A stretch of 64,000 nucleotides of DNA from Salinimicrobium xinjiangense DSM 19287 (lineage in GTDB: Bacteria; Bacteroidota; Bacteroidia; Flavobacteriales; Flavobacteriaceae): contig NZ_AUIG01000008.1 of assembly GCF_000423585.1 (NCBI RefSeq), positions 62,001-126,000 on the forward strand, in the 5' to 3' direction. The position numbers were made by a program, and so were the translations under genes. The notes under the pieces are model-generated. The model saw only the letters and a list, made by a program, of their open reading frames with translations. It did no database searches and was not told the DNA's origin. Shown here piece by piece: positions 28,065 to 60,067 of the stretch; the first letter of the stretch is position 1; the number at the start of each line of letters is the position of its first letter.

Positions 28065-28095
28065 TTGTAGTCATAAAAACTATAAGATATTTTTA
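28065..28095 (+). promoter_or_regulatory. xylE promoter with embedded 20-bp operator
   Basis: TTG (28065-28067) and TATTTTTA (28088-28095) are spaced exactly 20 bp apart. The spacer is the motif TAGTCATAAAAACTATAAGA, whose core is an inverted repeat TAGT-N7-ACTA. A repressor here would block polymerase. An 18/20 copy lies upstream of the transaldolase gene. Confidence 0.6.
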
Positions 28096-28107
28096 ACACT
28101 TCAATAG

Positions 28108-29721
28108 ATGGCGACAGTAACAACAAGTAAAAAGAGCGTTTATCTCATAACAGTAGTAGCGAGCTTAGGCGGCTTGCTCTTTGGATATGACACTGCAGTA
28201 ATTTCAGGCGCCGTTGGAGCCCTTGAGAATTATTTCATTTTTACGCTCGAAAACGATTCGGTTTTTGCAGCAAAAAGTATTTTTCAATTCAAGGTGATCC
28301 TGAGTATTTGTGTCCTGGCCATTGTCCTGCTATTCAGCTCTTTCATCCTCAAGTTTTTTAAAAGAAGTAAAGCGTATATAATTATTGCTCTATTTTTCCT
28401 CTTAGGAGGAGCTCTATATTATTTCCAGTTTCTTGCATTACCCGATGTCCTTACAGAAAACCTTCGGAATTCTATTCTCGGTTTCATGATTAGTAGTGCC
28501 CTGGTTGGTTGTATAATTGGAGCTTCTTTTGGAGACAACATTGCTAATTCTATTGGCCGCCGAAACGGACTTATTATAGCCGCTTTTCTTTTCCTGGTTT
28601 CCGCAGTTGGTTCCGCTTATCCTGAAGTAATGGATATCTTCCCCGGAAATAATCTTTCTGCCTTTATTATTTACAGGATAATAGGAGGAATTGGGGTTGG
28701 TCTCGCCAGTATGCTTGCACCTATGTACATTGCCGAAATGGCTCCTGCAGACATTCGCGGAAAGCTGGTTTCCTTTAACCAGTTCGCGATTGTTACGGGT
28801 ATGCTTGTGGTTTATTTTGTGAATTATTTTATTGTAAGGGGACAGACTGAGGACTGGATCAATACAGAAGGATGGCGTCTCATGTTCCTTTCTGAGGCAA
28901 TTCCTGCAGTCCTTTTCTTCATTTTCCTCCTTATGGTACCAAAAACTCCAAGATTCCAAACAATGAAAGGAAAAGAGGAAAATGCTATGAAGGTGCTTAC
29001 GAAACTGAACGGACCGGAAAGGGCAGCTCAGATCTTACAGGAAATTAAAGCCTCATTTAGCCGCACCAGGTCCCACTGGCTCTCCTTTGGCTGGACTGTA
29101 GTCGTTATCGGTATCCTTTTATCTATATTTCAGCAGTTCGTGGGAATTAATGTAGTGCTTTATTACGCCCCTGAGATCTTCCGGGGAATGGGAATGGAGA
29201 CAGACGCTTCCATGCTCCAAACTATAATCGTTGGAGCCATTAATATGCTCTTTACTGTGCTCGCTATCATGACGGTGGACAAGTTCGGTCGAAAAAAATT
29301 AATGATGATAGGAAGTGCTGTTATGGCGATAAGCATGATTGGCCTTGGATTTACCCTTTATTGGGAAGTGGAAGGTTTACCTGCCCTACTACTTATGCTG
29401 CTGTACATCGCTGCTTTTGCAATGTCATGGGGACCTGTTGTGTGGGTACTGCTTTCCGAAATTTTCCCCAACAAAATACGGGGTGTGATGGCTGTAGCCG
29501 TTGCTGTACAATGGCTGGCAAACCTCATCGTTTCCTGGACCTTCCCAATGATGAACAACAACGAAGCTCTTGTAGAAAGTTTCAATCATGGGTTCTCCTA
29601 CTGGATCTACGGTGTAATGGCAATCCTTTCGGGCTTGTTCATCTGGAAATATGTACCTGAAACTAAAGGAAGAACACTCGAAGACATGGAAAACATATGG
29701 ATTCGCAAAAAACAAGATTAA
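28108..29721 (+). CDS. xylE: Xylose:proton symporter, MFS sugar-porter family
   Basis: A 537-residue inner-membrane sugar transporter. Sugar-porter signatures are clear: LLFGYDTAVISGAVGAL in helix 1, FVIYRIIGGIGVGLA-like IIYRIIGGIGVGLASM, PADIRGKLVSFNQFAIVTG, QQFVGINVVLYYAPEIF and the C-terminal PETKGRTLEDME. The similarity to XylE is strong around RGKLVSFNQ and YRIIGGIGVGLASM. Compared with the ~490-residue E. coli protein it carries about 70 extra residues after helix 1, with two further predicted helices at about 62-84 and 90-111. It is the first gene of xylE-xylB-xylA, and xylulokinase starts one base after its stop. Confidence 0.92.
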   Translation: MATVTTSKKSVYLITVVASLGGLLFGYDTAVISGAVGALENYFIFTLENDSVFAAKSIFQFKVILSICVLAIVLLFSSFILKFFKRSKAYIIIALFFLLGGALYYFQFLALPDVLTENLRNSILGFMISSALVGCIIGASFGDNIANSIGRRNGLIIAAFLFLVSAVGSAYPEVMDIFPGNNLSAFIIYRIIGGIGVGLASMLAPMYIAEMAPADIRGKLVSFNQFAIVTGMLVVYFVNYFIVRGQTEDWINTEGWRLMFLSEAIPAVLFFIFLLMVPKTPRFQTMKGKEENAMKVLTKLNGPERAAQILQEIKASFSRTRSHWLSFGWTVVVIGILLSIFQQFVGINVVLYYAPEIFRGMGMETDASMLQTIIVGAINMLFTVLAIMTVDKFGRKKLMMIGSAVMAISMIGLGFTLYWEVEGLPALLLMLLYIAAFAMSWGPVVWVLLSEIFPNKIRGVMAVAVAVQWLANLIVSWTFPMMNNNEALVESFNHGFSYWIYGVMAILSGLFIWKYVPETKGRTLEDMENIWIRKKQD

Positions 29722-29722
29722 T

Positions 29723-31216
29723 ATGTATTTTTTAGGAATTGACTTGGGAAGCTCCTCGATAAAGCTATCCCTGTTGGATGCCGAAAAAGGAAAAATCATT
29801 GGTTCTGTAACCGCTCCAGATTTTGAAATGGAGATGATCGCGCCGAAGTTCGGATGGGCTGAACAGCATCCCGATAAGTGGTGGGAATATGTGCGCCAGG
29901 GAATTGGCGAGTTAAGAAAAAAAGGTCTGGATATAAAAAAGATCAAGGGGATCGGTATTGCTTACCAGATGCACGGGTTGGTCCTGACAGATGAAAACCT
30001 GGAGCCGGTAAGGCCTTCGATCATCTGGTGTGATAGCCGGGCAGCAGAAATAGGAAATGCAGCCTGCGAAGAAATAGGGCTGGAGAACTGCCAAAAGCAG
30101 ATCCTGGGCAGCCCCGGAAATTTTACTGCATCCAAGCTAAAGTGGGTAAAAGAAAATGAGCCGCAAGTATTCGCTAAAGCGAAATACATGATGTTGCCGG
30201 GAGATTACATAGCTGCAAAATTGTCTGGAGTACCTCAAACTACTACATCCGGGCTTTCTGAAGCTGCATTGTGGAACTTTTCAGAAGGAAAACTGGCTAC
30301 CGGAATACTTGAAAAGATGGGGCTTCCACAGGAGGTTGTACCCGAGATAGTCCCGACTTTTGGACACCAGGCAAAAGTTCTCCCTGATGTCGCGAATGAG
30401 TTAGGGCTAAACAGTGATGTGGAAATAACCTATCGTGCAGGAGACCAGCCAAATAATGCTTTATCATTAAACGTGCTTAATCCGGGAGAAATTGCTACAA
30501 CCGCGGGCACTTCGGCAGTGATCTACGCAGTAACCGATAAAGATCTCTACGACAAGAACAGCAGAATAAACACATTTCTGCACGTAAGTAATACCCCCGA
30601 AGAAAAGCGCAACGGTTTACTGGGCATAATTAACGGTTCCGGAATACTTTACCAATGGTTACGAAAGGTAGTTTCAGTTGGCAACCAGGAGCTACTTTCT
30701 TATGATGTTCTTAACCGCGAAGCTGCAAAAGTGGAACCCGGCAGTGAAAACCTAAGGTTTTACCCTTTCGGTAACGGTGTGGAAAGGATTTTTAATAATA
30801 AACAGGCAAATTCGGGCATTGAAAATCTAAACTTCAATATTCATCAACCCCCGCATTTGATCCGTTCAGCCTGTGAAGGAATTGTCTTTGCGATGAACTA
30901 TGGCTTTGATGTCATAAAATCATTGGGTACATCTGGAGAAGTAGTACGCGCCGGGAAAGGAAATCTTTTTCTAAGTCCGGTCTTCAGGGAAATTTTCTGC
31001 AACACTACCCAGGCAAAGCTGGAGCTTTATAACACTTCCGGAGCTGAAGGGGCAGCCAGGGGCGCCGCCTATGGGTTTGGCTATTACGACAGTTTAAAAG
31101 ATGCGTTGGGCGAACTGGAGTGCATAGAAACTTTAGAACCAAAAAAAGAATTGTCCGCGAGATATCAGGACATATATGAACAATGGAAAATGAACATTAA
31201 AATAGATAAAGATTAA
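29723..31216 (+). CDS. xylB: Xylulokinase
   Basis: A 497-residue FGGY-family kinase that phosphorylates D-xylulose to D-xylulose 5-phosphate. The start is ATG 29723, one base after the xylE stop, where the phosphate-1 loop [15 protein letters not shown] begins; a longer frame runs back into xylE. The family landmarks [19 protein letters not shown], the base-containing GDQPNNALS and the C-terminal [16 protein letters not shown] are in place. Xylose isomerase starts 2 bp after its stop. The tight packing indicates one transcript of transport, phosphorylation and isomerisation. Confidence 0.95.
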
Positions 31217-31218
31217 TT

Positions 31219-32535
31219 ATGAGTACAAGTAAATTCTTTAAAGGCATTGACCAAATAAAATTTGAAGGACGGGAGAGTGACAATCCTTTAGCCTTTAAAT
31301 GGTATGACGAAAATAAGGTGGTTGCAGGTAAAACCCTGAAAGAACATTTGAGGTTCGCAACTGCCTACTGGCACACGTTCAACAACACCGGAGCAGATCC
31401 TTTTGGTCCCGGTACCGAAACCTTTGCATGGGATAAGAGCAACGATCCTATTACTCGTGCAAAAGATAAGATGGACGCTGCATTTGAATTCATGACAAAG
31501 CTGGGTACGCCATTCTACTGCTTCCATGATGTGGATGTAGTGGATGAAGCTCCAACTTTGGCCGAATTTGAGAAAAGGATCCACACAATGGTGGACTACG
31601 CCAAAGAGAAGCAAAAAGAAAGCGGAATAAAACTTCTTTGGGGAACATCCAATCTTTTCAGTAATCCCCGTTACATGAATGGTGCTGCCACCAATCCGAA
31701 CTTCGATGTTTTGGCATATGCAGGCGCACAGGCAAAGATCGCCCTGGATGCAACTATAGCACTGGGTGGAGAAAATTATGTGTTCTGGGGTGGCCGTGAA
31801 GGTTACATGAGTCTTTTGAATACAGACATGAAAAGGGAATTGGATCACCTTGGAAGATTTTTGAACACCTGTAAAGATTATGCAAGAAAGCAAGGCTTTA
31901 AAGGCAACTTCTTTATCGAACCAAAGCCTATGGAACCAACAAAGCATCAGTATGACTACGATGCAGCCACTTCTCTGCGTTTCATCCAACAATACGGACT
32001 AGAAAAAGACTTCAAACTGAACCTTGAGGTAAACCACGGAACCCTTGCGGGTCATACTTTTGAACATGAGCTTCAGGTAGCTGTTGATGCCGGAATGCTG
32101 GGCAGCATAGATGCGAACAGAGGAGATTATCAAAACGGATGGGATACAGATCAATTCCCTATTGACCTTTTTGAAATTACCCAGGCCATGTTGATCATCC
32201 TCGAAGGAGGCGGAATCCAGGGTGGAGGTATTAATTTCGATGCTAAAGTCCGTCGTAACTCTACCGATCTTGAAGACAAATTCATTGCACACATTGCAGG
32301 AATGGATGTTTTTGCAAGAGGACTTATTTGTGCCAATAACATTCTTGAAAACACTAAGTATAACAAGATCCGTAAAGATCGTTATGCTTCCTTTGATTCA
32401 GGTAATGGAGCAAAATTTGAAAACGGAGAGCTGACTCTTGAAGATCTGAGCAAGATTGCACGTGAAAACGGAGAACCAAAGCAAATAAGCGGAAAACAGG
32501 AATTACTGGAACAAATTGTAGCCAATTCGTACTAG
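31219..32535 (+). CDS. xylA: Xylose isomerase
   Basis: A 438-residue class II xylose isomerase, converting D-xylose to D-xylulose with two divalent metals in the cytoplasm. The proton-shuttle segment [10 protein letters not shown], the metal ligands in [35 protein letters not shown] and [20 protein letters not shown], and the C-terminal [12 protein letters not shown] are all present. The length fits the long class II form of Bacteroidota. It is the last gene of the xylE-xylB-xylA unit and is followed by two hairpins before the next xylan-degrading genes. Confidence 0.97.
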
Positions 32536-32558
32536 AGCATTCCCGATAATAAATTTAA

Positions 32559-32584
32559 AAAGCCGGAGTCTCAACTCCGGCTTT
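32559..32584 (+). terminator. First of two tandem hairpins after xylA
   Basis: Arms AAAGCCGGAGT (32559-32569) and ACTCCGGCTTT (32574-32584) form a perfect 11-bp stem with a CTCA loop. The T tract is short. Confidence 0.7.
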
Positions 32585-32587
32585 CCT

Positions 32588-32615
32588 AAAACCTTAGCCA
32601 TGAGGGCAAGGTTTT
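32588..32615 (+). terminator. Second tandem hairpin after xylA
   Basis: AAAACCTT and AAGGTTTT (8 bp) plus inner GCC/GGC pair around ATGAG, with a one-base bulge. It is 3 bp after the first hairpin and could be a second terminator or an attenuator between xylA and the GH43 gene. Confidence 0.6.
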
Positions 32616-32642
32616 ATATTCACTTTTAAACAATTTTTTCTA

Positions 32643-33776
32643 ATGGAATTTAAACATTTAAGATTTCCAAAAACTGCAGTTCTGATGCTGTCCATTCTTG
32701 TAGTTTCAGCATGCAAAAACGAAAACAACAGGGAAGAAGTCCAGGAAGATACTGCCGCGGCAAACGATACTTTGCCTGAGTTTGCATCTGAACCTCTTGT
32801 CACAGATAATTACACAGCAGATCCTTCTGCTCATGTTTTTGAAGGGAAGATTTATGTATATCCCTCACATGACTGGGATTCCGGAATTCCCGAAGATGAT
32901 ACAGGCGCACATTTCAACATGAAAGACTATCATGTTTATTCTATGGACAGTGTAGGAGGTCCGGTGACAGATCACGGTGTTGTGCTGGATGTTAAGGACG
33001 TGCCCTGGGCCAGCAGACAAATGTGGGCTCCAGATGCTGCGGAAAAAGATGGAAAATACTACCTGTATTTTCCTGCAAAGGACGAAAACGACATTTTCAG
33101 AATTGGGGTGGCCGTTGGCGACTCCCCTGCAGGTCCCTTCACTCCTCAACCTGAACCTATTGCTAAAAGCTATAGTATAGATCCGGCGGTTTATAAGGAT
33201 ACAGACGGTAAATATTACATGTACGTGGGAGGAATCTGGGGAGGCCAGCTTCAGCGTTATCGCGATAATGAATATCGAGGTGAGGAAGACGTATACCCTG
33301 CAGATGATGAACCTGCTCTCATGCCGAAAATTGCGCGAATGAGTGATGACATGTTAGGATTTGCTGAAGAGTTACGTGATGTTCAAATCCTGGATCAGGA
33401 AGGGAATCCTATTACTACCGGAGACAATGAAAGAAGATTTTTTGAAGCCGCGTGGGTACATAAGTACAATGACACCTATTACTTCTCCTACTCTACCGGT
33501 GACACTCATAATATAGCATATGCCACCGGTGATAGTCCATACGGTCCCTTCACTTATCAGGGGGTTATTTTGGAGCCGGTTCTGGGATGGACCAATCACC
33601 ATTCAATAGTAGAACATAACGGGGAGTGGTACCTGTTTTACCACGACAGTTCTCTCTCTGGAGGTAAAACCTATCTTAGAAGTATGAAAGTGGCTAAACT
33701 TGAGTACAACGAAGACGGTACTATAAAGACTATTAGTTCTTTTAAAGATGAAAATCCTGACGTGGTTGCTAATTAG
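32643..33776 (+). CDS. GH43 glycosidase, lipoprotein
   Basis: A 377-residue family GH43 enzyme, probably a beta-xylosidase or arabinofuranosidase that trims xylo-oligosaccharides. The lipobox is VVSAC (Cys24). The five-bladed propeller is marked by the catalytic base Asp60 in TADPSAHVFEGKIY, the pKa-modulating Asp in SIDPAVYKDTDGKYY and the catalytic acid Glu in RRFFEAAWVHKYNDTYY. The YPSHD and MWAPDAAEKDGKYYLYF motifs are close to the GH43 encoded at 50,795. It is 107 bp downstream of xylA with two hairpins between, and 11 bp upstream of the esterase, so the last two genes form a unit that may be partly uncoupled from xylEBA. Confidence 0.88.
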   Translation: MEFKHLRFPKTAVLMLSILVVSACKNENNREEVQEDTAAANDTLPEFASEPLVTDNYTADPSAHVFEGKIYVYPSHDWDSGIPEDDTGAHFNMKDYHVYSMDSVGGPVTDHGVVLDVKDVPWASRQMWAPDAAEKDGKYYLYFPAKDENDIFRIGVAVGDSPAGPFTPQPEPIAKSYSIDPAVYKDTDGKYYMYVGGIWGGQLQRYRDNEYRGEEDVYPADDEPALMPKIARMSDDMLGFAEELRDVQILDQEGNPITTGDNERRFFEAAWVHKYNDTYYFSYSTGDTHNIAYATGDSPYGPFTYQGVILEPVLGWTNHHSIVEHNGEWYLFYHDSSLSGGKTYLRSMKVAKLEYNEDGTIKTISSFKDENPDVVAN

Positions 33777-33787
33777 ACCTCTCTAAA

Positions 33788-35719
33788 ATGTCAAAATTCA
33801 GACTCTTTCTTACCGCAGTAATTTTCTGCAGTTATTCCTTATCTGTTTCCGGGCAGGTAAAATTACCGAAGCTTATTAATGATGGAATGGTACTGCAGCG
33901 GGAAGCAGAAGTTAAACTATGGGGATGGGCTTCTGCCAAGGAGCCTGTTTCCATTTCTTTTCTAAACCAGGAGTACAACACCACGGCGAATAGTAGTGGT
34001 GAATGGTCTGTTTCTCTTAAAGGACTAAAGGCAGGTGGGCCATACACTATGGACATCACAGGCAGCAACAAAATTCAGCTTAAGGATGTTTATATTGGAG
34101 ATGTGTGGCTGGCTTCGGGACAATCGAACATGGAATTGTCCATGGGAAGAGTGGAACCTTTATATGCCGATGAGATAGCCAATGCTTCCAATCCCAAACT
34201 GCGATTTTTTGAAGTGCCCAAGACTTACCATTTTGAAGAAGCCAGGCAGGAACTGGAGGCTGGAAAATGGGAAGCTGTAACTCCTGAAAATATCAGACAA
34301 TTTTCGGCTGTTGCTTATTTCTTTGCCAAAGATCTTTATGATCAATACCAGGTTCCCATTGGAATTATCAATTCCAGTCTCGGAGGTTCGCCTGCAGAAG
34401 CCTGGATGAGCGAAGAAGCCTTAAAAGATTTTCCTGCACATTATGCTGAGGCAATGCAGTACAAAAATCCTGAATACAGAGATAGCATTCAGAAGAATGA
34501 TACTCAAAGAATAGGAAACTGGCACCAGAAGGCTGTCCAGGAAGACATTGGAATACCAAACAAGTGGAAAGAGACAAATGTCAATACTGCCGACTGGAAT
34601 ACTATGGAAATTCCGGGCTATTGGGTCGATAATGAATTGGGGCCTAAAAATGGAGTCGTCTGGTTCAGAAAAACAATTGAAATTCCGCAAGAACTGGCGA
34701 AGCAAACCCCAAAGTTGTTAATGGGAAGGATTGTCGATGCCGATTCAGTTTTTATCAACGGCAGCTTTGTAGGAAATACAACCTACCAGTACCCTCCGCG
34801 GAGATATTCTGTACCTGCAGATGTCCTGAAGCCGGGAAAAAATACCATCAGCATAAGGATCACCAACGAAAGCGGAAGAGGAGGTTTTGTTACAGACAAG
34901 CCTTATAAGCTCATTTTTGACGACTCAGAAATTGACCTGACAGGAGAATGGAAATACAAGTTGGGAGTAGAAATGCCTTCTTTAAGGGGACAAACATTTA
35001 TAAGATGGAAACCTTTGGGCCTATACAATGCAATGATTAATCCTCTTACAGAATGTACTTTGAAAGGTGTTATCTGGTATCAGGGGGAATCTAATGCAGA
35101 CTCTCCCGTTGAATATGAGACCCTTTTCCCTGCTCTTATTACAGACTGGCGGGACCAATGGGAGCAACCAAAACTTCCTTTCCTGTTTGTACAACTGGCA
35201 AACTTTATGGAAAGCCGGGATGAACCGGGAGACAGCAACTGGGCAAGACTCCGTGATTCGCAGTTAAAAACTTTGTCCCTGCCCAAAACCGGAATGGCAG
35301 TTACTATAGATGTGGGCGAATGGAACGATATTCATCCCTTAAATAAAAAAGCGGTTGGACATCGCCTTGCACAGGCAGCACGAAAAGTTGCCTATGATGA
35401 AAAAATCGTTAGCGGCGGACCTCTCTACGAATCCTTTACCCGGAAAAAGGATACTATAGTAATAAATTTCAGGGAGGTCGGAAGAGGTTTGGTGACGAAG
35501 GACGGTGACAAACTTCGGCAATTCAGTATAGCAGGAGAAGATGGAAAATTCTACTGGGCCAATGCCGAAATAAGGGGTGACAAAGTAATAGTGTATAGTC
35601 CTAAGGTGAAAAATCCTGTTGCCGTACGCTACGCCTGGGCAGATAATCCCGAAGGGGCCAATCTATTCAATAAGAATGGATTTCCTGCCTCTCCTTTCAG
35701 GACAGACGATTGGGAGTAA
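33788..35719 (+). CDS. SASA-family carbohydrate acetylesterase with inserted jelly-roll domain
   Basis: A 643-residue exported esterase of the sialate-O-acetylesterase type (signal peptide ending SLSVSGQ). The SGNH catalytic serine is Ser113 in ASGQSNMELSMG, the third block is WYQGESNADSP, and Asp514/His516 lie in DIHPLNKKAVGHRLA. Between residues ~235 and ~395 a beta-rich stretch (KETNVNTADWNTMEIPG, VVWFRKTIEIPQE) resembles the sugar-binding jelly-roll of GH2 enzymes. In a xylan locus the natural role is removal of acetyl groups from xylan. The family name reflects another substrate and should not be taken literally. It follows GH43 by 11 bp. Confidence 0.85.
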   Translation: MSKFRLFLTAVIFCSYSLSVSGQVKLPKLINDGMVLQREAEVKLWGWASAKEPVSISFLNQEYNTTANSSGEWSVSLKGLKAGGPYTMDITGSNKIQLKDVYIGDVWLASGQSNMELSMGRVEPLYADEIANASNPKLRFFEVPKTYHFEEARQELEAGKWEAVTPENIRQFSAVAYFFAKDLYDQYQVPIGIINSSLGGSPAEAWMSEEALKDFPAHYAEAMQYKNPEYRDSIQKNDTQRIGNWHQKAVQEDIGIPNKWKETNVNTADWNTMEIPGYWVDNELGPKNGVVWFRKTIEIPQELAKQTPKLLMGRIVDADSVFINGSFVGNTTYQYPPRRYSVPADVLKPGKNTISIRITNESGRGGFVTDKPYKLIFDDSEIDLTGEWKYKLGVEMPSLRGQTFIRWKPLGLYNAMINPLTECTLKGVIWYQGESNADSPVEYETLFPALITDWRDQWEQPKLPFLFVQLANFMESRDEPGDSNWARLRDSQLKTLSLPKTGMAVTIDVGEWNDIHPLNKKAVGHRLAQAARKVAYDEKIVSGGPLYESFTRKKDTIVINFREVGRGLVTKDGDKLRQFSIAGEDGKFYWANAEIRGDKVIVYSPKVKNPVAVRYAWADNPEGANLFNKNGFPASPFRTDDWE

Positions 35720-35949
35720 GGATAAAAACTTTGAGAGAATTTTCATTGTATTTATACTGGAAAATAATCTATAAGTTTTCATTTGCTTAGAAGAATAGGA
35801 TATATTGAAGGAGAGTCTCACGATAGTGAATTAAAAGGATCCACCGAACTCAAAGCTATCTCTAAAGTTCTATTTTTAAAGCTTAAAAAAATACGCTGAC
35901 AAGATTTCCCTGTCCTCCACAAGCTGATAAATTTGTAATCTCTTTGCTT

Positions 35950-38900
35950 ATGACCTGGCAAGTATATTTCAGAAGTTCTTTTTTCGATGACTGCAGGCAA
36001 TTGGCTGCACGCGTTGGCAGTTCTATTCTTTCTGATTTTCAGCAAGTGTTCCCTTTTCTTCTTTTCATTATTCTGTCCCTAAGCCATTCTCCGACCTCGG
36101 CCCAGAACAAACAGTTTCAAAAATATCAGTTCAAGGAACTAAAAAAAATACCTACACAAAGAGCTGTGGCCAGTATTTCTCAAGACCAACAGGGATTTAT
36201 CTGGATGGGCACCAATGGCCTCGGACTTAACAGGTACAACGGTCTGGATTACACCTCTTATCAATTTATCGAGAATGACAGTACAAGTTTAAACAATTCT
36301 CTTATCCACGTCACCTTTGTAGATACACAAAACCGGTTATGGGTAGGTACAGAAAGGGGACTGGAGCTTTACAATAGAGACCAGAATAATTTTATCCATA
36401 TCAACCTGTTGGGGGAAGCAGAAAATGCAGGCAAGGCAGTACATGCGATCCTGGAAATGAAAAATGGGGACATTCTGGTGGGCACCCATCAACACGGATT
36501 ATATAGAATTGATTCTTCAAGCCGTGAAACTTCAAGTATCAGAATAGAAGCTGCCGACGAAATAAGGAACTTCTTAATAAACGATATTGCCCATTTTGAC
36601 AATAGAATCCTTCTGGGGACCAACAGAGGTTTATATGAATATTCCGAGGATAGTAAAATAGTTGCTCCCCTCGACTTTATGACAGCTAATGGGAAGCAAC
36701 AGATCAGTGCCCATATTCAAACCACAGAAGTAGACGGCAGAGGTTCAATTTGGTTAGGCACCACAACAAACGGCTTGTATAAAATCGATGGTAACGAAAA
36801 TGGGCGCTATGCCATAGAACATCTTCCTATCACCTCCAAAAGGATACTGTCACTGCTCTCTACCCCTAGAAAGACGATCTTATGTGGTACCGAAAACGAT
36901 GGAATGTTCGAAATAGACAGGAAAGGAAATATTCTAAACCACTATCTCAACAATAAAAATGACGACAACGGAATAAAATCAAATTCAATATGGTCGTTGT
37001 TTTTAGATGATCAGGAACGTATATGGATTGGTTACTACAATAATGGTGTAGGTGTCTACGACGAGCTATACGACAAATTTGCCGACATAGAGAGTAAATC
37101 GAACAATCCTAATTCCCTGGAATCCAGTTCTGTTACGGGTATCATCAAGGATGAGAAAGGGAGATTATGGATTGGTATGGATGGTGGTGGTATTGATATA
37201 TATAATCCTGTTTCAGGTAAGTTTACACATTTATTGAACAATGAGAATGAAATTGCAAATGGATTGGATTCTCCAGATGTTCAAACGCTTTTTATGGACA
37301 GCAAGGGAAATATATGGGTTGGAACCTGGGACTATGGAATTTATTTCCTGGAGAAAGGATCTAAGTCCTTCAGAAATTTTTCTGTTCAAAACACCGGTGG
37401 TGAAATAGATTCCAATCGCATTCTCAGCTTTTCTGAAGATTCCAGTGGTACTATATGGATCGGAACTTTTTCCAGGGGTATTCATTCTTTTCATCCCCGG
37501 AAAGAAAAATTTACTATCTACGACGAGGAACCTTTCATTCAGGAAAGAATCAATTTTAGTGATGTAAGGCGGGTCTATGTGGATAGTCGGGATAATATAT
37601 GGATAGGTGGAAGTGCCGGACTTTTCAAAATAAAAATGGTAAATGGGAAAGTTGATCTCGAAGTTCTTTCTCAAAGATTTTACAAAGATGCCGGTGAGCA
37701 ATCCTATAGAAGTCAGATTCTGGATATTTACGAAGATTCTTCTCAAAACATATGGATAGGAACAGATGGTCTGGGGCTTTGTAAGTATGATATGAAGAAA
37801 GACTCCTTTTCCTGGATAGAACCAGAAACTGGTTTTAATAAAGTGACGGTATCTTCTATCATTCAGGATGATAGTGGTGCGATTTGGGTAGCCGGCAATA
37901 ATGGCATCTCAAAATTGGACAGGGAGATGAACACACTTAAAAATTTCTCCATCAGTGACGGGCTTCTAAGTGATGACTTTAATAATAGTAGTGTCTATAA
38001 AGATCAGAGTGGAACAATCTACTTTGGCTCTTACGAAGGGGTCAATTATTTTAATCCCGAGAACCTTACGTTCAATAAGAATCCCTCGCATGTTTATTTA
38101 ACCGACTTCAAAGTATTTAACAAGTCAATTAATCCAAACCAGAAAAACTCTCCTCTGGAAAAGGTTATATCCCAAACAGACGAAATCTCCCTTGATCATT
38201 CACAGTCTGTGTTTACCATTGATTTTGCCTCAATAGACTTCACAAGACCAGAAAAAATTCAGTTTGCATATTATCTTGAAGGTTTTGAAGATAACTGGAA
38301 TTATGTACAAAGCAGCCGAAGTGCTACTTACACAAACCTTCCTCCAGGAAGTTACACCTTTAAGGTAAAAGCAACCAATAGTGATGGTTTATGGGAAGCT
38401 GAACCTACAATACTAAATATTATTATACAAAAACCCTGGTGGTTTACAAATGTTGCACTTCTATCTTATGTCTTAGTGTTTCTTCTGATATGTTATGTCA
38501 TACTCCGCTTTTTCAATTCACGTCTTAATAGCAAACGTGCTATTGAACAGGAGAGGACACGACACCTTCAGGAGGAGGCTCTTAATGATAAAAAAATTCA
38601 GTTCTTCACGAATATATCCCATGAATTCAGAACACCGCTTACACTAATTCTTAGCCCGCTACAGGATATTCTGGAAAACAAGAGCCTTCCGGAAAAATTA
38701 AAGGGAAAGGTCAAAATTATCAACAAAAATACCATACGACTTAAAAGGCTGATTGATGAGTTGATGGATTTCAGAAAACTTCAGTTTGAAAAAATTCCGC
38801 TAAAGATCTCTCCTTTTGATATTAATGAGCTGCTTTATGAAATAACCGGATACTTTGTAGAAGAGGCACAGCAACGCAATATCGCAGTATCAATAGATAC

Positions 38901-48801: not shown

Positions 48802-48807
48802 ATTTCC

Positions 48808-49330: not shown

Positions 49331-49340
49331 CAATCGATTG
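49331..49340. promoter_or_regulatory. Distal CAATCGATTG site upstream of susC
   Basis: A perfect copy of the palindrome, about 540 bp upstream of the proximal susC site and downstream of the GH43 gene. It could be an auxiliary operator for DNA looping. Confidence 0.5.
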
Positions 49341-52168: not shown

Positions 52169-52220
52169 CTTTAGAAAATTGCTTTGCGAATTGCTTTTTT
52201 TTGAAAGTATATATAAGCCT

Positions 52221-53384
52221 TTAGCGATTGTTTTTTGTCAACTTAATTATCTCCTGCACCACTGGTTTTGCATAATTCTGCCTGTCAAAAAGCAGTGGAT
52301 AATCTGTCCTCCCTTTTACCGGAAAATTGTTTTTCCATGAATTCCCGTCATTTACACCCCACAGCGTTACACGGGAGATCTTATCCTGATGTTTCAGGAA
52401 AAGTTTGAAAAAATCAACATATCTCGTGGTGAATTGTTGCTGAACACCGTCGGGCAAACTATCTGGAAATGGGTTCATTTTATCTTCATATTCGAAGTTT
52501 TGTGAGATTTCAGCGCCGGCATCACCCCAGGGAGACGGCAGAACGCTCAGATCAAGTTCAGAAATTACAACTTTGCCCAAAGCTCCAAAGGCTTCTATGC
52601 TTTTTTCAAATTCATTTATCTCGGGATAATTCAGCCCGATATGCCCCTGCATTCCTATCCCGTGAACCGGAACTCCCTCCTGCTGAAGCTGTTTCACCAT
52701 TTTGACCACTCCTAAACGTTTCCGCGGATTTGCCATTGAATAGTCATTGTAGTAAAGCTCTGCTTCAGGATCTGCCTCATGAGCATACTGAAAAGCCAGT
52801 TTTACAAAATCCTCCCCAAGGATTTCAAAGAATTTGCTCTGTCGGTAACTACCATCATCCTCAATAGCTTCGTTCACCACATCCCATGAATGCACCCGTC
52901 CCTCGTAGCGTGCAACCACAGTATAGATGTGGTCCTTCATTCGCTGCTTAAGGACTTCAGGAGAAATTGTTTTCCCTTCGTCATCAACAAAAAACCAGTC
53001 CGGGGCCTGCGAATGCCAGATTAAGGTATGCCCATGAACATGCATATCGTGCTGTTCCCCAAACTCCACGAATCGATCTGCCAGGGCAAAATTGAACTCC
53101 CCTTCCCGCGGCTGAATTCTGGAGCTCTTCATGACATTTTCAGCAACAATTGCGTTGAAGTGCTGCTTTACAATTTCTATTGCTTCAGGTTCCTTCCCGG
53201 CAAGCTGCCACCTATTCAAAGCTGTCCCAATAAGAAATTTATCTTTATAGGCATCCTTCAAATGAACATCAGTAACCTGTTTAACAGTGTCTCTTTCTTT
53301 TGCCGCGCAACCATGCGCCAATACTAAATTGAAGCAAAGGCAGAAAGCGGAAAGTAGGAGCTTTTTATAATTCATTAACTTCAT
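52221..53384 (-). CDS. GH10 endo-1,4-beta-xylanase, lipoprotein
   Basis: A 387-residue GH10 xylanase, the third in the window. I start at ATG 53384, 7 bp after the aldo/keto reductase stop; a longer frame overlaps that gene. The lipobox region is [12 protein letters not shown] (Cys26). GH10 motifs are [17 protein letters not shown], acid/base Glu172 in [12 protein letters not shown] and nucleophile Glu276 in [12 protein letters not shown]. Unlike the enzyme in the susCD operon it has no binding-module insert. It probably trims imported xylo-oligosaccharides in the periplasm or at the surface with the neighbouring GH43 proteins. Confidence 0.93.
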
Positions 53385-53391
53385 AATCAAC

Positions 53392-54240
53392 CTAATTATT
53401 TTCAAAATGATCCATGAAATCATCGGGATGTGCTCCTGTTCGCTCTTCCCGGTCCAGGGCATTTATTTTGCACATATCTTCTTCGGAAATCTTAAAATCA
53501 AAAACATCTGCATTTTCAAAAATCCGCTCCCGGTGAACACTTTTGGGAATGGTTACCACTCCTTTCTGAAGGTTCCATCGAATAATCAATTGTGCGACGG
53601 ACTTTTTATATTTCTCTGCCAGGTCTTTCAATGTATCAATTTTGAAAACTCCGCCCCTCATCAACGGAGACCAGGATTCATACTGAATATTATTTTTCTT
53701 GCAAAAGTCAAGCAATGGCTGCTGGACCAGCCTTGGATGAAACTCATTCTGAACGACCGCAGGTACTACATCTGAATTCTCCACAACATCAATTAAATGG
53801 TGTTGTAGAAAGTTCGATACTCCTATAGCTTTAACCCTTCCCTCTTTGTATAATTTCTCAAGAGCTTTCCAGGTTTCGAGATACTTTCCCGGCACCGGCC
53901 AGTGGATCAGGTAAAGATCTACATAATTCATATTTAACTCCTTCAGAGAGTTATCAAAAGCAGCTAGAGTCTGTTCATACCCCTGATCATCATTCCACAC
54001 TTTTGTAGTAATAAAAATCTCTTCCCGTGGAACGCCCGAAGTTCTTATCGCTTCTCCAACGCCTCTTTCATTCTCATAAAAGGAAGCTGTATCGATATGC
54101 CGGTAACCGGCCTCAAGAGCATGCTGGATGGAATCAACCACTTCGCGACCTTCTTTGGCTTTATAAACCCCCAGCCCCAAAACAGGCATGTCGACGCCAT
54201 TGTTAAGTTTTGTAGTTCCGTTAATATCTGTAATCTTCAT
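53392..54240 (-). CDS. Aldo/keto reductase (AKR, 2,5-diketogluconate-reductase type)
   Basis: A 282-residue cytoplasmic NADPH-dependent reductase. Asp and Tyr are in [16 protein letters not shown], the Lys in [14 protein letters not shown] and the His in [14 protein letters not shown]. The [17 protein letters not shown] cofactor clamp is near the C-terminus. Length is normal for the AKR5-like branch. It sits in the xylanase/GH43 string, 7 bp before GH10, so reduction of a pentose, uronate or released aldehyde is likely, but the substrate is unknown. Upstream lies a 114-bp tandem repeat instead of a normal intergenic sequence. Confidence 0.85.
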
Positions 54241-54256
54241 AATCTTTTTTTACCAA

Positions 54257-54370
54257 CTCCATCACTCCTTCACTTCGTTACTTCATCACTCCATCACTCA
54301 GTCACTTCATCACATCATCACATCATCACTTCATCACTTCATCACATCATCACTTCATCACTTCATCACT
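54257..54370. repeat. Tandem 8-bp repeat (TTCATCAC / ATCATCAC)
   Basis: About 14 imperfect units of TTCATCAC-type sequence run between the mutarotase and aldo/keto reductase genes. The unit is most regular from 54,304 to 54,370. The array supplies the last codons and the stop of the mutarotase gene on the minus strand (stop at 54358-54360). It is a simple-sequence array, not CRISPR. Confidence 0.9.
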
Positions 54371-55554
54371 GAAAATTTAAAACTTGTTTTACTGGAATAT
54401 TTCTCTCCTGACTCCAGTACTACCGAAGGAAAGTTTTTCTGATTCGGAGAATCCGGGTAATGCTGTGTTTCAAAGCAGAAACCTGTTCTCTTTTCATAAT
54501 TTCCGTTGCCATACTGCAGGGGAAGTGTTCCATCGAGGAAATTTCCTGTATAGAGTTGCATTCCGGGTTCAGTGGTGAATACTTCCAGTTGTCTTCCCGA
54601 TGCCGGGTGAACTGCCGAAGCGGCGAAACGCATCCCGCTGTCCTGCTCATTTATCACCCAGGTATGGTCATAGCCATTGGCGATTAACAGTTGTTCGTGA
54701 GCAGCATTAATTTCTTTTCCTAATGATTTGGACTGCCTGAAATCAAAAGGAGTACCTGCAACAGATTGCAGCTCCCCTGTTGGAATTAGGCTATCATTAA
54801 CAGGCACAAATTCATCTGCATTTATCTGAACCTTATGATCCAGGATGGTGTTGGAAAAATCTCCCGATAAATTAAAGTAGGAATGTTGAGTAAGGTTGAC
54901 CACTGTCTTCCTGTCTGTGGTCGCTTCATATTCCACATCCAAAGAATTATCGTCATTCAGGGTATAGGTGACGAGCGTCTCAAGTCGGCCGGGATAACCT
55001 TCTTCCATATGTTCACTGACATAGGACAGGACCAGCCTGTTCTCTTTTGAAGTATCCTCTACAGTCCAAACCACCTTGTCAAATCCTTTGTCCCCACCGT
55101 GTAAATGATTTTCTCCATTGTTCCGGGCGAGCGTATATTCCTGTCCGTCCAGAGAGAATTTACCTTCTGCAATTCTATTCCCATAACGACCGATTATTGC
55201 CCCAAAAAAGGGGTTTTCCTCAACATATTGCTCCAGATTATCAAATCCCAAAACCACATCTTCAAAATTTCCTGCTTTATCGGGCACTTTAAGAGAAGTA
55301 ATACGCCCCCCGTAGGTGATGATCTTTACCTCCATCCCCTGTTCATTTTTCAGGATAAACTTTTCCACCTGCTCTCCTTCAGGAGTTGCTCCAAATATTG
55401 TTCTTTTCATTGCTAATTGTTCTTTTTGAGCTGAAGCTTTGTCTTCCGGGGTTTCTTCATGACTATTTTTACACTGGACGAAAACCAGGGCAAAAAATAT
55501 AATCCCAAATTTTATGACACTTCCATTTGCTCTTCTCATGCTGAAACTTTTCAA
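54358..55554 (-). CDS. Galactose mutarotase (aldose 1-epimerase), lipoprotein
   Basis: A 398-residue aldose 1-epimerase that interconverts alpha and beta anomers of free sugars, here plausibly xylose, arabinose or other released monomers. A lipobox ALVFVQC (Cys28) predicts export, which is common for Bacteroidota polysaccharide loci. The substrate-binding His is in NHLHGGDKGFDKVVW, a second catalytic His in LTQHSYFNLSGD and the Glu in TTEPGMQLYTGNFLDG. A second in-frame ATG (55539) could also start it. Its last codons lie inside a tandem repeat, so the C-terminus may vary between strains. It is 24 bp downstream of the GH43 stop. Confidence 0.9.
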   Translation of the reverse strand: MKSFSMRRANGSVIKFGIIFFALVFVQCKNSHEETPEDKASAQKEQLAMKRTIFGATPEGEQVEKFILKNEQGMEVKIITYGGRITSLKVPDKAGNFEDVVLGFDNLEQYVEENPFFGAIIGRYGNRIAEGKFSLDGQEYTLARNNGENHLHGGDKGFDKVVWTVEDTSKENRLVLSYVSEHMEEGYPGRLETLVTYTLNDDNSLDVEYEATTDRKTVVNLTQHSYFNLSGDFSNTILDHKVQINADEFVPVNDSLIPTGELQSVAGTPFDFRQSKSLGKEINAAHEQLLIANGYDHTWVINEQDSGMRFAASAVHPASGRQLEVFTTEPGMQLYTGNFLDGTLPLQYGNGNYEKRTGFCFETQHYPDSPNQKNFPSVVLESGEKYSSKTSFKFSVMK

Positions 55555-55578
55555 TTCTCAAAGTTGAACTACAAGATG

Positions 55579-57279
55579 TTAATCACCTTTGCGGTTCTTG
55601 TATACTTCATCATTGCCTGAATATTCAAACCAGTCGAAAGCAGCCTTATTGTCAGAAGCTTCTCCCTGAGAAGTTGTGTACATTCCAAGATTGGTTCCTA
55701 CGAAGCCACCTGCGACCCTGGTGCTCAAATATTTTCCTTCGAGTTCGCCGCCGAGGTTGATCCAATCTGAATCTGTTTTGAAGTAAAACCTGTAAGTATC
55801 CTCGTCAAATTCCACCATAAACTCTATTGTCTTATCTGAAGCAGAAAGCTTTTCACTGGCCAACAATTCAGCTCCATTCTCAGATCCTTTGAACAGCTGC
55901 ACCACAGGAGAGTTTCCTTCATAGGATTTAGCTATAAAGTAAAAATGAGATTCATTCTGAAAAGCGATCAATCCGGCTTTTTCATTTGGTTTTTTGGTGT
56001 CAAATTCCATTGAAACTGATGCCTCGCCCGTTAAATGCTGCTGCCTATGTGCAATAAAGCTCGGATTCGAAGTTCCGGAAACAGTTTCGGGCCTGGTCTT
56101 CATCACCAGGTGTCCCGGACTCTCTTTCAGATCATACCAATTCTCCTTCGGATTCCGCAGGAATAGCCAGTGCAGGTCAAGTTCTTCCTCTTCAAACTGC
56201 TTGGTGAACTCAAAATTCCCATTCAGAGGAAAAAGATCTTCATTAATGCTCACTCCTTCCGGAAGCGGATATTCATATTTTATCTCCTCTCCTCCCAGGT
56301 CAAAGATGGGCCAGTCGTTTTCCCATTTTACAGGGGTTAAGAAAGTTTCTCTTCCAGTGTTGTAATAGTCACCTTCATAAGGACGTACTGCCAGAAAAAC
56401 TCCGTACCAGTCCCCGTTTGGATGCTGAACAATATCTGCATGTCCTGCGGAAGTAATAGGATTTTCACGATCGGGATCCAGGTGCCTTTGCGTTAAAATT
56501 GGGTTGTCTTTATAAGGAATAAATTCATCGTCTATATCTCTGTTCCTGTAGATCATTTCTGAATGGTTCACCGCGGTTCCTCCTTCTGCAGTCATGAGGT
56601 AGTAATAACCGTTAAGTTTGTAGATCCTGGGTCCTTCTGCCCAAACAGGCTTAGTACTTATATCCACTCCGCCATTGACCAAAATACGATCCTCTCCCAT
56701 CGTCTTCAGGTTTTCCTTGTGGAATTCCATCATTCTTATAGTACGGTGGCCATCGTATAAAGGCTTGTTATTCGGAGGATCACTGTTATACACGATGTAG
56801 GATTTCTCTTCGTCAAAAAACAGCCCGGGATCAATTCCAATTACCTCCGGCAACCAGACAGGATCGCTCCATGGTCCTGCAGGATCTTTAGCCGTGACTA
56901 CGAAATTACCTTTCCCGTCTACCACTGTACAGGTCACATAGAAAATTCCATTGTCATAGCTAATGTCGGGTGCAAAAATGGCCCGGGAGGTTCCAAAACC
57001 ATGCAGATCAATTTGATCGGGGCGGTCAATCACATTCCCTATCTGCTTCCAGTTGACCAGATCTGTGCTGTGAAACACCGGGATGCCGGGATAGAAAGCA
57101 AAAGTGGAATGCACCATATAAAAATTCCCGTTGCCGTCATCTGTTATTGCGGGATCGGGATACCAGCCTGCCAGAATGGGATTTTTAAAGGTCTCCTGGG
57201 CACCGGCGGAAAAATTAAATCCGATCAGTGCCAACAGCACTATTAAAAAGCAGTGTCGAAATTGTGGTGTGAAATTCAT
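55579..57279 (-). CDS. GH43 beta-xylosidase with C-terminal concanavalin-like domain
   Basis: A 566-residue exported GH43 enzyme (signal ending NFSAGAQ). The propeller begins with the base Asp in LAGWYPDPAITDDGNGNFYMV. It continues with the middle Asp in GIDPGLFFDEEKSYIVYN and the acid Glu in PVWAEGPRIYKLNGYYYL. From about residue 365 a beta-sandwich domain (NGNFEFTKQFEEEELDLHWLFL, PSFIAHRQQHLTGEASVSMEF) matches the C-terminal domain of GH43 xylosidases, which shapes the active site. Length is as expected for beta-xylosidase/arabinofuranosidase proteins. It is followed by the mutarotase and preceded by a 179-bp gap separating it from the transketolase genes. Confidence 0.92.
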   Translation of the reverse strand: MNFTPQFRHCFLIVLLALIGFNFSAGAQETFKNPILAGWYPDPAITDDGNGNFYMVHSTFAFYPGIPVFHSTDLVNWKQIGNVIDRPDQIDLHGFGTSRAIFAPDISYDNGIFYVTCTVVDGKGNFVVTAKDPAGPWSDPVWLPEVIGIDPGLFFDEEKSYIVYNSDPPNNKPLYDGHRTIRMMEFHKENLKTMGEDRILVNGGVDISTKPVWAEGPRIYKLNGYYYLMTAEGGTAVNHSEMIYRNRDIDDEFIPYKDNPILTQRHLDPDRENPITSAGHADIVQHPNGDWYGVFLAVRPYEGDYYNTGRETFLTPVKWENDWPIFDLGGEEIKYEYPLPEGVSINEDLFPLNGNFEFTKQFEEEELDLHWLFLRNPKENWYDLKESPGHLVMKTRPETVSGTSNPSFIAHRQQHLTGEASVSMEFDTKKPNEKAGLIAFQNESHFYFIAKSYEGNSPVVQLFKGSENGAELLASEKLSASDKTIEFMVEFDEDTYRFYFKTDSDWINLGGELEGKYLSTRVAGGFVGTNLGMYTTSQGEASDNKAAFDWFEYSGNDEVYKNRKGD

Positions 57280-57458
57280 ATTATTGAGATGTTTTATTAG
57301 TCATTCCGGAAGCACATCAGCTGCTTCTCCTCTGAACATTTTATTGTTAGAATCATATTTTCTGCTGAAAAAATTTCCGGAAGACATACCTCTCAAAAAG
57401 GGAATTTTTTGGCTTCCTTTTTTCTTCAGTAGAAACACAGATCATTAGAGTTTCGGTT

Positions 57459-58412
57459 TTATTTCCTGCCGAGCACCTTTTCCGAAGCTTTTATAATAGC
57501 TTCAGCATTCAAACCATACTTTTCCATAAGCTGCCCGGGAGTTCCGCTTTCCCCAAAGGTATCTTGTGTAGCCACGAATTCCTGTGGAGCAGGATGATTC
57601 TTCACCAGGACGCGTGCGACGCTTTCGCCAAGACCTCCCAGGTAATTGTGCTCCTCTGCTGTCACCACACAACCTGTTTTCTTTACAGATTTTAGAATTG
57701 CTTCTTCGTCCAGGGGTTTAATAGTATGGATGTTGATCACATCACAGGAAATCCCCTGTTCTTCAAGTTTCTCTGCCGCCTGAATTGCTTCCCAAACGAG
57801 GTGTCCGGTGGCGATAATTGTCACATCACTTCCTTTCAGCAAATGAACTGCCTTACCTATTTCAAACTTCTGTTCTTCAGGGGTAAAATTTGCCACTTTT
57901 GGGCGGCCAAATCTTAAATAGACCGGCCCCTCATGCTCTGCAATGGCAAGCGTTGCTGCTTTGGTCTGATTGTAATCACAGGTGTTAATGACTGTCATCC
58001 CCGGTAGCATCTTCATAAGCCCGATGTCCTCGAGGATTTGGTGAGTCGCACCGTCTTCACCGAGAGTGACTCCGGAATGAGATGCACAAATCTTCACGTT
58101 CTTATCTGAATAGGCAACACTTTGCCTTATCTGGTCATAGACCCTGCCCGTCGCAAAATTGGCAAATGTACCTGCGAAGGGGATTTTCCCTCCAATGGTA
58201 AGCCCGGCAGCAATCCCGATCATATTAGCTTCGGCAATTCCTACCTGGAAAAACCTTTCAGGATTTTCATCTATGAAATCCTGCATTTTCAGCGAACCTA
58301 CCAGATCTGCACAAAGTGCAACGACATTAGGATTTTTTCTCCCCAGTTCTGTAAGTCCGGCTCCAAATCCGGAGCGCGTATCTTTTTTTCCTGTATCTGT
58401 ATATTTCTTCAT
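57459..58412 (-). CDS. Transketolase, C-terminal subunit
   Basis: A 317-residue protein corresponding to the pyrimidine-binding and C-terminal domains of a split transketolase. The catalytic Glu-containing stretch is in [25 protein letters not shown], followed by [20 protein letters not shown] and the [22 protein letters not shown] segment. It pairs with the N-terminal subunit 106 bp upstream. The enzyme moves two-carbon units between pentose and hexose phosphates, so it links xylulose 5-phosphate to glycolysis. The intervening gap contains two inverted GC-rich repeat copies. Confidence 0.93.
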
Positions 58413-58413
58413 A

Positions 58414-58516
58414 AGCCTCCCCCGGTCCCTCCAGCGGAGGGGAGATGGGGCGTGTTTAAATGTTAAAATTCTTCATTATTGAAGTTCAAGCTCCTCCCTT
58501 CGGGGAGGCTGGGTGG
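58414..58516. repeat. Two inverted GC-rich hairpin elements between transketolase subunit genes
   Basis: One at 58,414-58,452 has CCCTCC-AGC-GGAGGG and one at 58,488-58,516 has CCTCCC-TTCG-GGGAGG. The two copies are in opposite orientation (the first ends in GATGGGG, the second in GGGTGGGC). They look like dispersed Bacteroidota elements. Confidence 0.7.
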
Positions 58517-58518
58517 GC

Positions 58519-59367
58519 CTAAAAGTCCCCCAAAGTCTCAGGGTTCTGCGCCAGAGCCTTTTCCAGTTGTTCGTCATTTGGAGCCACTCCGTGCCACTTG
58601 TGACTTCCCATCATAAAGTCTACACCATGACCCATTTCTGTGTTCATGATGATGCAAACCGGTTTTCCTTTACCTGTACGGCTCTTTGCCTCTTTTAGAC
58701 CGTCGATTACCTGCTTCAGGTCATTCCCGTTTTCGATTTCCAGGACATCCCACCCAAAGGCTTTGAATTTCTCTACCAGATTTCCCATAGGCAATACATC
58801 ATCTGTAGACCCATCGATCTGCTGATGGTTTCTGTCTACTGTAGATATGAGATTATCCACCTTTTTACCGGCAGCATACATAATGGCCTCCCAGTTCTGT
58901 CCTTCCTGCAACTCTCCATCCCCATGTAAAGTATATACTATTTGAGGATCCTTATTCAGCTTTTTAGCCTGCGCAGCCCCAAGAGCTACGGACATTCCCT
59001 GGCCAAGTGAGCCCGAAGCTACTCTAACTCCCGGTAATCCTTCGTGAGTAGTTGGATGCCCCTGCAGCCTGGAATTAATTAGTCTGAATGTGCTTAATTC
59101 CTCTACAGGAAAATACCCGCTGCGAGCGAGCACGCTATAAAAAACCGGAGAGATATGACCATTGGAAAGAAAGAATAAATCTTCTCCAATCCCGTCCATG
59201 TCAAATCCTTCTTTACGAACCATCACTTCCTGATAGAGTACGGTAAAAAATTCTGTACAACCAAGGGAACCTCCTGGATGACCGGAATTCACCTTGTGCA
59301 CCTGCCGTAAAATATCCCTTCGCACCTGTGACGCAAAGGCTTCAAGTTTCTTAATTTCCATAATCAT
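58519..59367 (-). CDS. Transketolase, N-terminal subunit
   Basis: A 282-residue thiamine-diphosphate-binding half of the split transketolase. The TPP-binding motif is HGDGELQEGQNWEAIMYAAG, and the dimer/TPP segments NSGHPGGSLGCTEFFTVLYQE and GSLGQGMSVALGAA are present. A single His-rich AHKWHGVAP-like stretch near the C-terminus (GSHKWHGVAPN) closes the active site. It needs the downstream C-terminal subunit. Either of two ATG codons (59367, 59361) may start it. The transaldolase gene lies directly upstream, so three pentose-phosphate proteins are on one transcript. Confidence 0.93.
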   Translation of the reverse strand: MIMEIKKLEAFASQVRRDILRQVHKVNSGHPGGSLGCTEFFTVLYQEVMVRKEGFDMDGIGEDLFFLSNGHISPVFYSVLARSGYFPVEELSTFRLINSRLQGHPTTHEGLPGVRVASGSLGQGMSVALGAAQAKKLNKDPQIVYTLHGDGELQEGQNWEAIMYAAGKKVDNLISTVDRNHQQIDGSTDDVLPMGNLVEKFKAFGWDVLEIENGNDLKQVIDGLKEAKSRTGKGKPVCIIMNTEMGHGVDFMMGSHKWHGVAPNDEQLEKALAQNPETLGDF

Positions 59368-59373
59368 TTTAAT

Positions 59374-60021
59374 TTAAGATTTAGCATCCTGTAAGAATTT
59401 TTCCAACCCGCTATCGGTCAACGGATGCTTTAAAAGGCCATCAATGGAAGACAAAGGACCTGTCATTACATCTGCTCCAATTTTCGCACAATTCACCACG
59501 TGCATGGTGTGCCTTATCGAGGCAGCAAGAATTTGAGTCTCGAATTCGTAGTTATCATAGATCTGGCGGATCTCTGCTATCAACTGCAGCCCGTCTGTAG
59601 AAATATCATCCAGTCTTCCCAGAAAAGGTGAAACATAAGTAGCTCCTGCCTTAGCTGCGAGCAGGGCCTGGCCTGCAGAAAAGACGAGCGTACAGTTTGT
59701 CCTTATCCCCTGATCTGAAAAATATTTGATTGCTTTTATCCCTTCCCGTATCATTGGTACCTTTACCACGATCTGTGGATGCAGCTCTGCCAGTTCTTCG
59801 CCTTCTTTTACTATTTCATCAAAGTCTGTTGCAATTACTTCCGCAGAGACATCTCCCTCCACTATTTCACAGATCTTCAGGTAATGCTTCAGGATATTAT
59901 CTTTTCCCCTGATTCCTTCTTTTGCCATTAGGGAGGGGTTAGTGGTTACACCATCAAGAACACCTAATTCCTGTGCCTCTCTGATATCATCCAGGTTGGC
60001 GGTGTCAATAAAAAATTTCAT
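59374..60021 (-). CDS. tal: Transaldolase (small FSA/TalC-type)
   Basis: A 215-residue class I transaldolase, which transfers a dihydroxyacetone unit between pentose and hexose phosphates. I start at ATG 60021, where the family N-terminus [16 protein letters not shown] begins; the longer frame is spurious. The Schiff-base lysine is Lys87 in [11 protein letters not shown], followed by [28 protein letters not shown]. It is the first gene of the operon tal, transketolase N and C. A 20-bp motif shared with the xylE promoter lies 26 bp upstream, which suggests joint control with xylose uptake. Confidence 0.93.
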
Positions 60022-60047
60022 AAGAAAATAATTTAATAAATTTCTAA

Positions 60048-60067
60048 TAGTCATATTAACTATAAGA
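60048..60067. promoter_or_regulatory. Candidate Nudix-regulator operator upstream of tal
   Basis: TAGTCATATTAACTATAAGA matches the site in the xylE promoter at 18 of 20 positions. The core is an inverted repeat ATAGT-N7-ACTAT. It sits 26 bp upstream of the transaldolase ATG on the opposite strand and 231 bp upstream of the CE2-like gene. Confidence 0.6.

Follow-up and report, generated by a model that had tools for sequence, protein, structure and literature searches.

The window analysed here comprises 64,000 nucleotides (nt) of contig NZ_AUIG01000008.1 (positions 62,001 to 126,000) from Salinimicrobium xinjiangense DSM 19287, and it contains two related palindromic elements, one before the xylE-xylB-xylA genes and the other before a second tal gene followed by two transketolase halves (tal-tktN-tktC). 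The neighbouring xylose-linked repressor, which belongs to a known regulator family, very probably binds both elements. We assign a probability of about 0.85 to the reading that both serve as operators for this regulator, here named XylR, a member of the NrtR family whose gene adjoins xylE; it would repress the xyl and tal-tkt genes until a pentose signal arrives. Xylose uptake would then probably be switched on along with a spare pentose-phosphate enzyme set. Computation supplied the sites and their conservation, their overlap with the xyl promoter, the assignment of the regulator to its family, and the match between recognition helix and site. All coordinates are positions in the window (Table 1), and the host genome (G000) has a size of 3.76 Mb in 45 contigs.

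The two elements and their expectation by chance

The 20-mers at 28068-28087 and 60048-60067 are located 32 kb apart and are identical on the + strand at 18 of 20 positions, as a sequence-only reading of this DNA had pointed out. Both contain TAGT-N7-ACTA, also as that reading had it; these are the only two exact copies in the window, and the motif turned out to be larger than claimed. The full palindrome is 25 bp long (TCTWRTAGT-N7-ACTAYWAGA), with one mismatch at 28063-28087 and none at 60043-60067. The TAGT-N7-ACTA core by itself says little; 12 copies with at most one mismatch were found in the window, as compared to 16 expected. For the 25-bp palindrome at up to three mismatches, three matches were found in the window against 0.20 expected. 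In the whole genome it matches 17 places, as compared to 64 for its reversed control, and fewer than two mismatches were observed only at the xyl and tal elements, the other places having two or three.

The claim that such a match is very unlikely by chance was overstated. Separate pairs of 20-mers with at least 18 identities numbered 40 in the window and 7-15 in each of five Markov copies, and at least one such pair also occurred in 34 of 100 Markov copies made from the intergenic DNA. The observed list of intergenic pairs omits the xyl/tal pair, because the site falls within the longer of the two tal frames that can be drawn. Taken alone, the 18/20 match in 64 kb is not significant and cannot exclude chance. 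Chance as the sole explanation was rejected on other grounds, namely the conservation of the motif at the xyl and tal loci, the pair match being undecisive in itself.

Family and contact residues of the regulator

The xylR product contains a winged helix of the NrtR/AraR type (PF21906, 93.1 bits with a cut-off of 27; PF19368, 57.2 bits with a cut-off of 23.8) and an N-terminal Nudix-like domain (PF00293, 42.4 bits). The Nudix signature is impaired, with leucines at the positions of two signature glutamates, as seen by eye against the published signature. The score to the NCBIfam model for NrtR was 132.6 bits, which is below its cut-off of 400. The closest named relative is the regulator of Salinimicrobium terrae (88% identity), and the best relative in PDB is AraR from Bacteroides thetaiotaomicron (BT0354; 5bs6, 5dd4, 5ddg, 5deq). 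A palindromic element upstream of linked genes, as is typical of NrtR-family regulators, is also present here.

XylR and AraR share the Nudix-like sugar domain and the winged helix of the NrtR family, a palindromic operator of the form 4-N7-4 and the control, here predicted, of a pentose operon. In the crystal structure of AraR with DNA, the operator consists of GTGT and ACAC separated by 7 bp, with Arg180 inserted between base pairs (PMC4666351). The xyl and tal elements have the same spacing with TRGT-N7-ACYA, and the residue aligned to Arg180 is a proline. Among the DNA-contact positions, Asp178, Lys179, Asn181, Arg183 and Arg205 are kept, while Lys184 is replaced by Arg and Lys204 by His, such that only Lys179, Asn181 and Arg205 remain of the six contacts of AraR orthologs (Lys179, Arg180, Asn181, Lys184, Lys204, Arg205). 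In the sugar pocket, XylR retains Arg86 and His131 and has His in place of Arg34 and Trp in place of Phe49; the trio that forms hydrogen bonds to arabinose in AraR (Arg34, Arg86, His131) is thus incomplete.

Site type follows regulator type

A site with at most three mismatches to the 25-mer, close to the regulator start or further upstream, was identified at 79 of 80 loci of close regulator relatives, and with four mismatches at the remaining locus, L055. We then gathered all regulator loci, removed duplicates and sorted the genes by the residue aligned to AraR Arg180, calling a site from the family-wide 23-bp consensus CTTRTRGT-N7-ACYAYAAG (at most one mismatch, within 500 bp). Regulator genes of the Pro/Ser type, tandem second copies excluded, have the site in 93 of 94 cases, as compared to none of the 55 more distant genes of the Arg type. 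It was also found in none of the 77 tandem second copies, the upstream DNA of which is the first copy. The Pro/Ser proteins form a single clade, mostly from Flavobacterium, with a support of 0.988. The same site was recovered in Salinimicrobium, Gillisia, Galbibacter and a genome from another family (L232, with a regulator of 55% identity). In a sample of 100 genomes of the family, four encode a regulator of at least 70% identity, of which three have the site under a tighter pattern with at most three mismatches.

At most Flavobacterium regulator loci, including L020 (6001-7453), a second regulator gene with about 63-72% identity to that of the window is located directly behind the first. A second, partly matching site directly after the main operator was observed upstream of xylE in L134, L184 and L089, and also in L020 and L037, an arrangement that points to tandem operators like those reported for AraR.

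Sorting by residues 178-181 (AraR numbering) gave three groups: DKRN (n = 32), DKPN together with DKSN (n = 94) and all others (n = 32). GTGT-N7-ACAC was present exactly at 17 of the DKRN loci and with at most one mismatch at 28, and none had an exact TRGT-N7-ACYA. The latter was exact at 93 of the 94 DKPN/DKSN loci, where GTGT-N7-ACAC was never exact and occurred within one mismatch only twice. Of the other 32 loci, two had GTGT-N7-ACAC exactly and three had TRGT-N7-ACYA exactly. In shuffles, exact matches were obtained at 0.1-1.7 loci per group and TRGT-N7-ACYA with one mismatch at 28-33 loci. For six of the seven DTRN proteins TRGT-N7-ACYA was found within one mismatch, for which we found no explanation. 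Loci with DTRN, DSRN, DRRN and DARN helices (e.g., L187, L196) mostly lack both exact operator types, and these types may have another operator. At L284, an Arg-type regulator beside xylB-xylA is accompanied by two GTGT-N7-ACAC sites, and the helix type therefore follows the operator and not the sugar.

That site type tracks regulator type is the best argument for the regulator as the binder. The motif might instead be bound by the LacI-family regulator encoded at 26027-27112, which adjoins xylR in an arrangement kept in several Salinimicrobium loci. We regard this as very improbable, given that a LacI counterpart was found at only 3 of the 80 regulator loci (flanks of up to 6 kb) as compared to 79 with the site, and that both the site spacing and the helix correlation favour the NrtR type.

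Promoter architecture

We examined 88 homologous promoters, picked by the site form [AC]TTGTRGTC. In 87 of these, a TTG is located 19-21 bp before an eight-base box (20 bp in 78), and the box starts with TA in 86; the TTG end of the box is part of the selection. Flavobacterial -7 boxes have the form TAnnTTTG and are placed at -12 to -5 in Flavobacterium psychrophilum (PMC9723704). By this pattern, transcription of xylE is predicted to start near position 28072, and operator 1 would span about -9 to +16. Such a placement, across the -7 box and the presumed start, is repressor-like.

According to the sequence-only reading, the motif instead fills the spacer between the -33 and -7 boxes of xylE, as would a promoter part or an activator site. 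The window does contain the order TTG, 20-mer, TATTTTTA, but such a downstream box was seen in only 3 of the 88 promoters; in 87, a TTG is found upstream at a spacing of 19-21 bp. Furthermore, the site ends 5 nt before the ATG in L055 and 13 nt before it in L183 and L185, so that a -7 box and a leader would hardly fit. The spacer placement was thus not supported, and a role as promoter part or activator site is most unlikely.

For tal, a -7-like box that abuts the operator was identified by eye, with the sequence TATTATTG in G000 and G108, and TATATTGC and TATCTTGC in G102 and G109.

The second tal-tkt set

The host genome has two tal genes. A second copy was found in 4 of 12 Salinimicrobium genomes, all among the seven with a close regulator, and in all four it is followed by the transketolase halves. 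In each of the four, a site with one mismatch lies 22-41 nt ahead of the start codon, as compared to none in the 11 upstream regions of housekeeping tal genes, where the best matches have 5-7 mismatches. The site is kept in two promoters with different flanks. The sequence-only reading had named the absence of the motif from orthologous promoters as a refutation, but 93 of 94 regulator loci and all four second tal copies retain it. The proposal that a Nudix-fold regulator links xyl and tal-tkt through a shared site thereby gains support, as it does from the NrtR family of the protein and the AraR-like spacing of the half-sites.

It is conceivable that only the xyl site is genuine, and that the tal site resembles it by chance or is the target of another NrtR-type protein. 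Chance pairs with 18/20 identities are common, an NrtR-type paralog is encoded on contig 1, and the 23-bp consensus at up to one mismatch was found at four places in the genome: xyl (no mismatch), tal, inside xylE and on contig 13 (one mismatch each). Because of the latter two, the mismatch count alone cannot single out the tal site. Yet the helix of the paralog is DARN and not DKPN, and the distribution over second and housekeeping tal copies, together with the two different flanks, leaves this explanation with very little probability. Operators of XylR remain the preferred reading for both elements.

A tal relative with 80% identity passes the NCBIfam model fsa_talC_mipB, which is named fructose-6-phosphate aldolase; a transaldolase is therefore the likely, rather than the certain, identity of the window tal. 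In G102 and G109, the same strand runs closely on through genes for a glycoside hydrolase of family 43 (GH43), an aldose epimerase and an aldo/keto reductase. The downstream gene order is the same in the window, where the gap after tktC is 179 bp as compared to about 52 bp in G109, and these three genes are perhaps also under operator 2. In G061 (L279), genes for transketolase, tal, an NrtR-type regulator and ribulokinase all point in one direction, and G071 (L294) is alike, each with a regulator of 41-42% identity. An association of this regulator family with tal and tkt thus occurs in an arabinose context as well.

Profile scans of the window identified GH67, GH3, GH43 and esterase-type genes which, together with xylE-xylB-xylA, surround both sites. 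Short, imperfect tandem repeats (CATCACTT-type) occupy 54256-54351, in the gap that separates the aldo/keto reductase gene from the aldose epimerase gene.

Table 1. Positions of the predicted regulatory elements and of the genes around them.
Feature	Position	Strand	Description	Evidence or remark
Operator 1 (predicted)	28063..28087		Palindrome ACTTGTAGT-N7-ACTATAAGA	Before xylE-xylB-xylA
Operator 2 (predicted)	60043..60067		Palindrome TCTAATAGT-N7-ACTATAAGA	Before tal-tktN-tktC
-33 element of xylE (predicted)	28037..28039	+	TTG	Spacer of 19-21 bp in 87/88
-7 box of xylE (predicted)	28060..28067	+	TAAACTTG	Overlaps left arm of operator 1; TA in register in 86/88
-7 box of tal (candidate)	60068..60075	-	TATTATTG	Abuts operator 2; weaker case than xylE
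xylR	27233..27949	-	NrtR-family regulator, 238 amino acids, Nudix-like domain and winged helix	PF21906, PF19368, PF00293; AraR 5bs6, E 1.1e-47
xylE	28108..29721	+	Xylose-type major facilitator superfamily transporter	NF007484, above cut-off
xylB	29723..31216	+	Xylulokinase-type FGGY kinase	TIGR01312 best match, below its cut-off
xylA	31219..32535	+	Xylose isomerase	TIGR02630, above cut-off
tal, second copy	59374..60021	-	Transaldolase/fructose-6-phosphate aldolase family	PF00923; other genome copy on contig 17
tktN	58519..59367	-	N-terminal transketolase half	PF00456
tktC	57459..58412	-	C-terminal transketolase half	PF02779, PF02780
GH43 gene	55579..57279	-	Beta-xylosidase type; perhaps in tal operon	PF04616, PF17851; order conserved in G102, G109
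Aldose 1-epimerase gene	54358..55554	-	Perhaps in tal operon	PF01263; order conserved in G102, G109
Aldo/keto reductase gene	53392..54240	-	Perhaps in tal operon	PF00248; order conserved in G102, G109
LacI-family regulator gene	26027..27112	-	Beside xylR; rival binder	PF00356

Points against shared control, and further matches

Several observations weigh against the control of both operons by XylR. The 94 loci with Pro/Ser-type regulators are not independent, because they represent one clade that is mostly Flavobacterium, and the helix-site correlation rests on one evolutionary event. L133 encodes a close ortholog without the site, and the frames beside it include no xyl gene that could be recognised by eye. 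Among the other 96 genomes of the family sample, G088 lacks the regulator and has a match at three mismatches. A scan of 22 genomes with the consensus at one mismatch gave 1-4 matches each, as compared to 1-6 for the reversed control, and genome-wide matches are therefore no more numerous than those of the control. The tal site is known from a single genus, in two promoter types (G000/G108 and G102/G109), and no clear -33 element was seen by eye before tal in these four genomes.

With regard to a wider regulon, the surroundings of six extra matches (L272, L273, L274, L275, L277, L278) were judged by the starts of open reading frames, with an NCBIfam scan added for L275 and L278, and none of the matches precedes a recognised pentose gene. 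The L278 site (G000 contig 13, 20397-20419) is located 11 nt before a frame of 160 amino acids without an NCBIfam match, and is possibly a further target or a chance match. In L275 (G030), the site at 2085-2107 is positioned some 125 bp ahead of a sensor-like gene, which matches the hybrid two-component gene of the window at 27%, and after a GH43-like gene. This site may be real.

Proposed mechanism

Binding and repression, and with them the direction of control, are what we infer. The winged helices of a XylR dimer would contact the inverted half-sites TRGT...ACYA, and the dimer would cover the -7 box and the start of both promoters, such that transcription is blocked and xylE-xylB-xylA and tal-tktN-tktC stay off without inducer. 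A pentose signal, most likely xylose itself as we infer from the gene content, would enter the Nudix-like pocket and free the dimer from the DNA. Such sugar-driven release is the likely inducing step by analogy with AraR, which responds to arabinose by releasing DNA (PMC4666351). Release would allow the uptake, isomerisation and phosphorylation of xylose along with expression of the second transaldolase-type and transketolase set, the enzymes of which would carry xylulose 5-phosphate onward.

The helix-site match could reflect a recognition switch within the family, a scenario to which we give even odds. AraR-type regulators would intercalate Arg180 and read GTGT-N7-ACAC, while this clade, with Pro or Ser, would read TRGT-N7-ACYA with the inner GT...AC retained. 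The spare tal-tkt set of Salinimicrobium would then have been recruited to the xylose circuit by gaining an operator of the new type.

Relation to known systems

Sugar-responsive NrtR regulators are already published, namely AraR and a predicted Bacteroides XylR, and the kind is thus known (PMC3878776, PMC4666351). The Bacteroides XylR (BT0791), also of the NrtR family, is encoded beside xylB-xylA-xylE genes and has a predicted xylose regulon (PMC3878776, PMC4666351). It was compared by its published description, the accessible part of which names neither tal nor tkt. NrtR proper (e.g., from Shewanella, PDB 3gz5/3gz6), an ADP-ribose-responsive regulator of nicotinamide adenine dinucleotide (NAD) metabolism, has the same two domains and an impaired Nudix signature. 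It differs in having NAD genes as targets and is a weaker match to the window protein (E 2e-22, as compared to 1.1e-47 for AraR). The XylR described in PMC12125979 belongs to another family, of the LacI/AraC type. A literature search, with most subscription papers and all supplements outside its scope, retrieved nothing on a flavobacterial xylose operator of the NrtR type, on tal-tkt in its regulon or on a correlation between helix and operator.

These results would take the sugar-sensing branch of the NrtR regulators beyond gut Bacteroides into flavobacteria and define an operator for it there, and a pentose-phosphate module is probably wired into the xylose circuit. The operator type may be predictable from a single residue, position 180, and a protein-DNA complex of this family has been solved.

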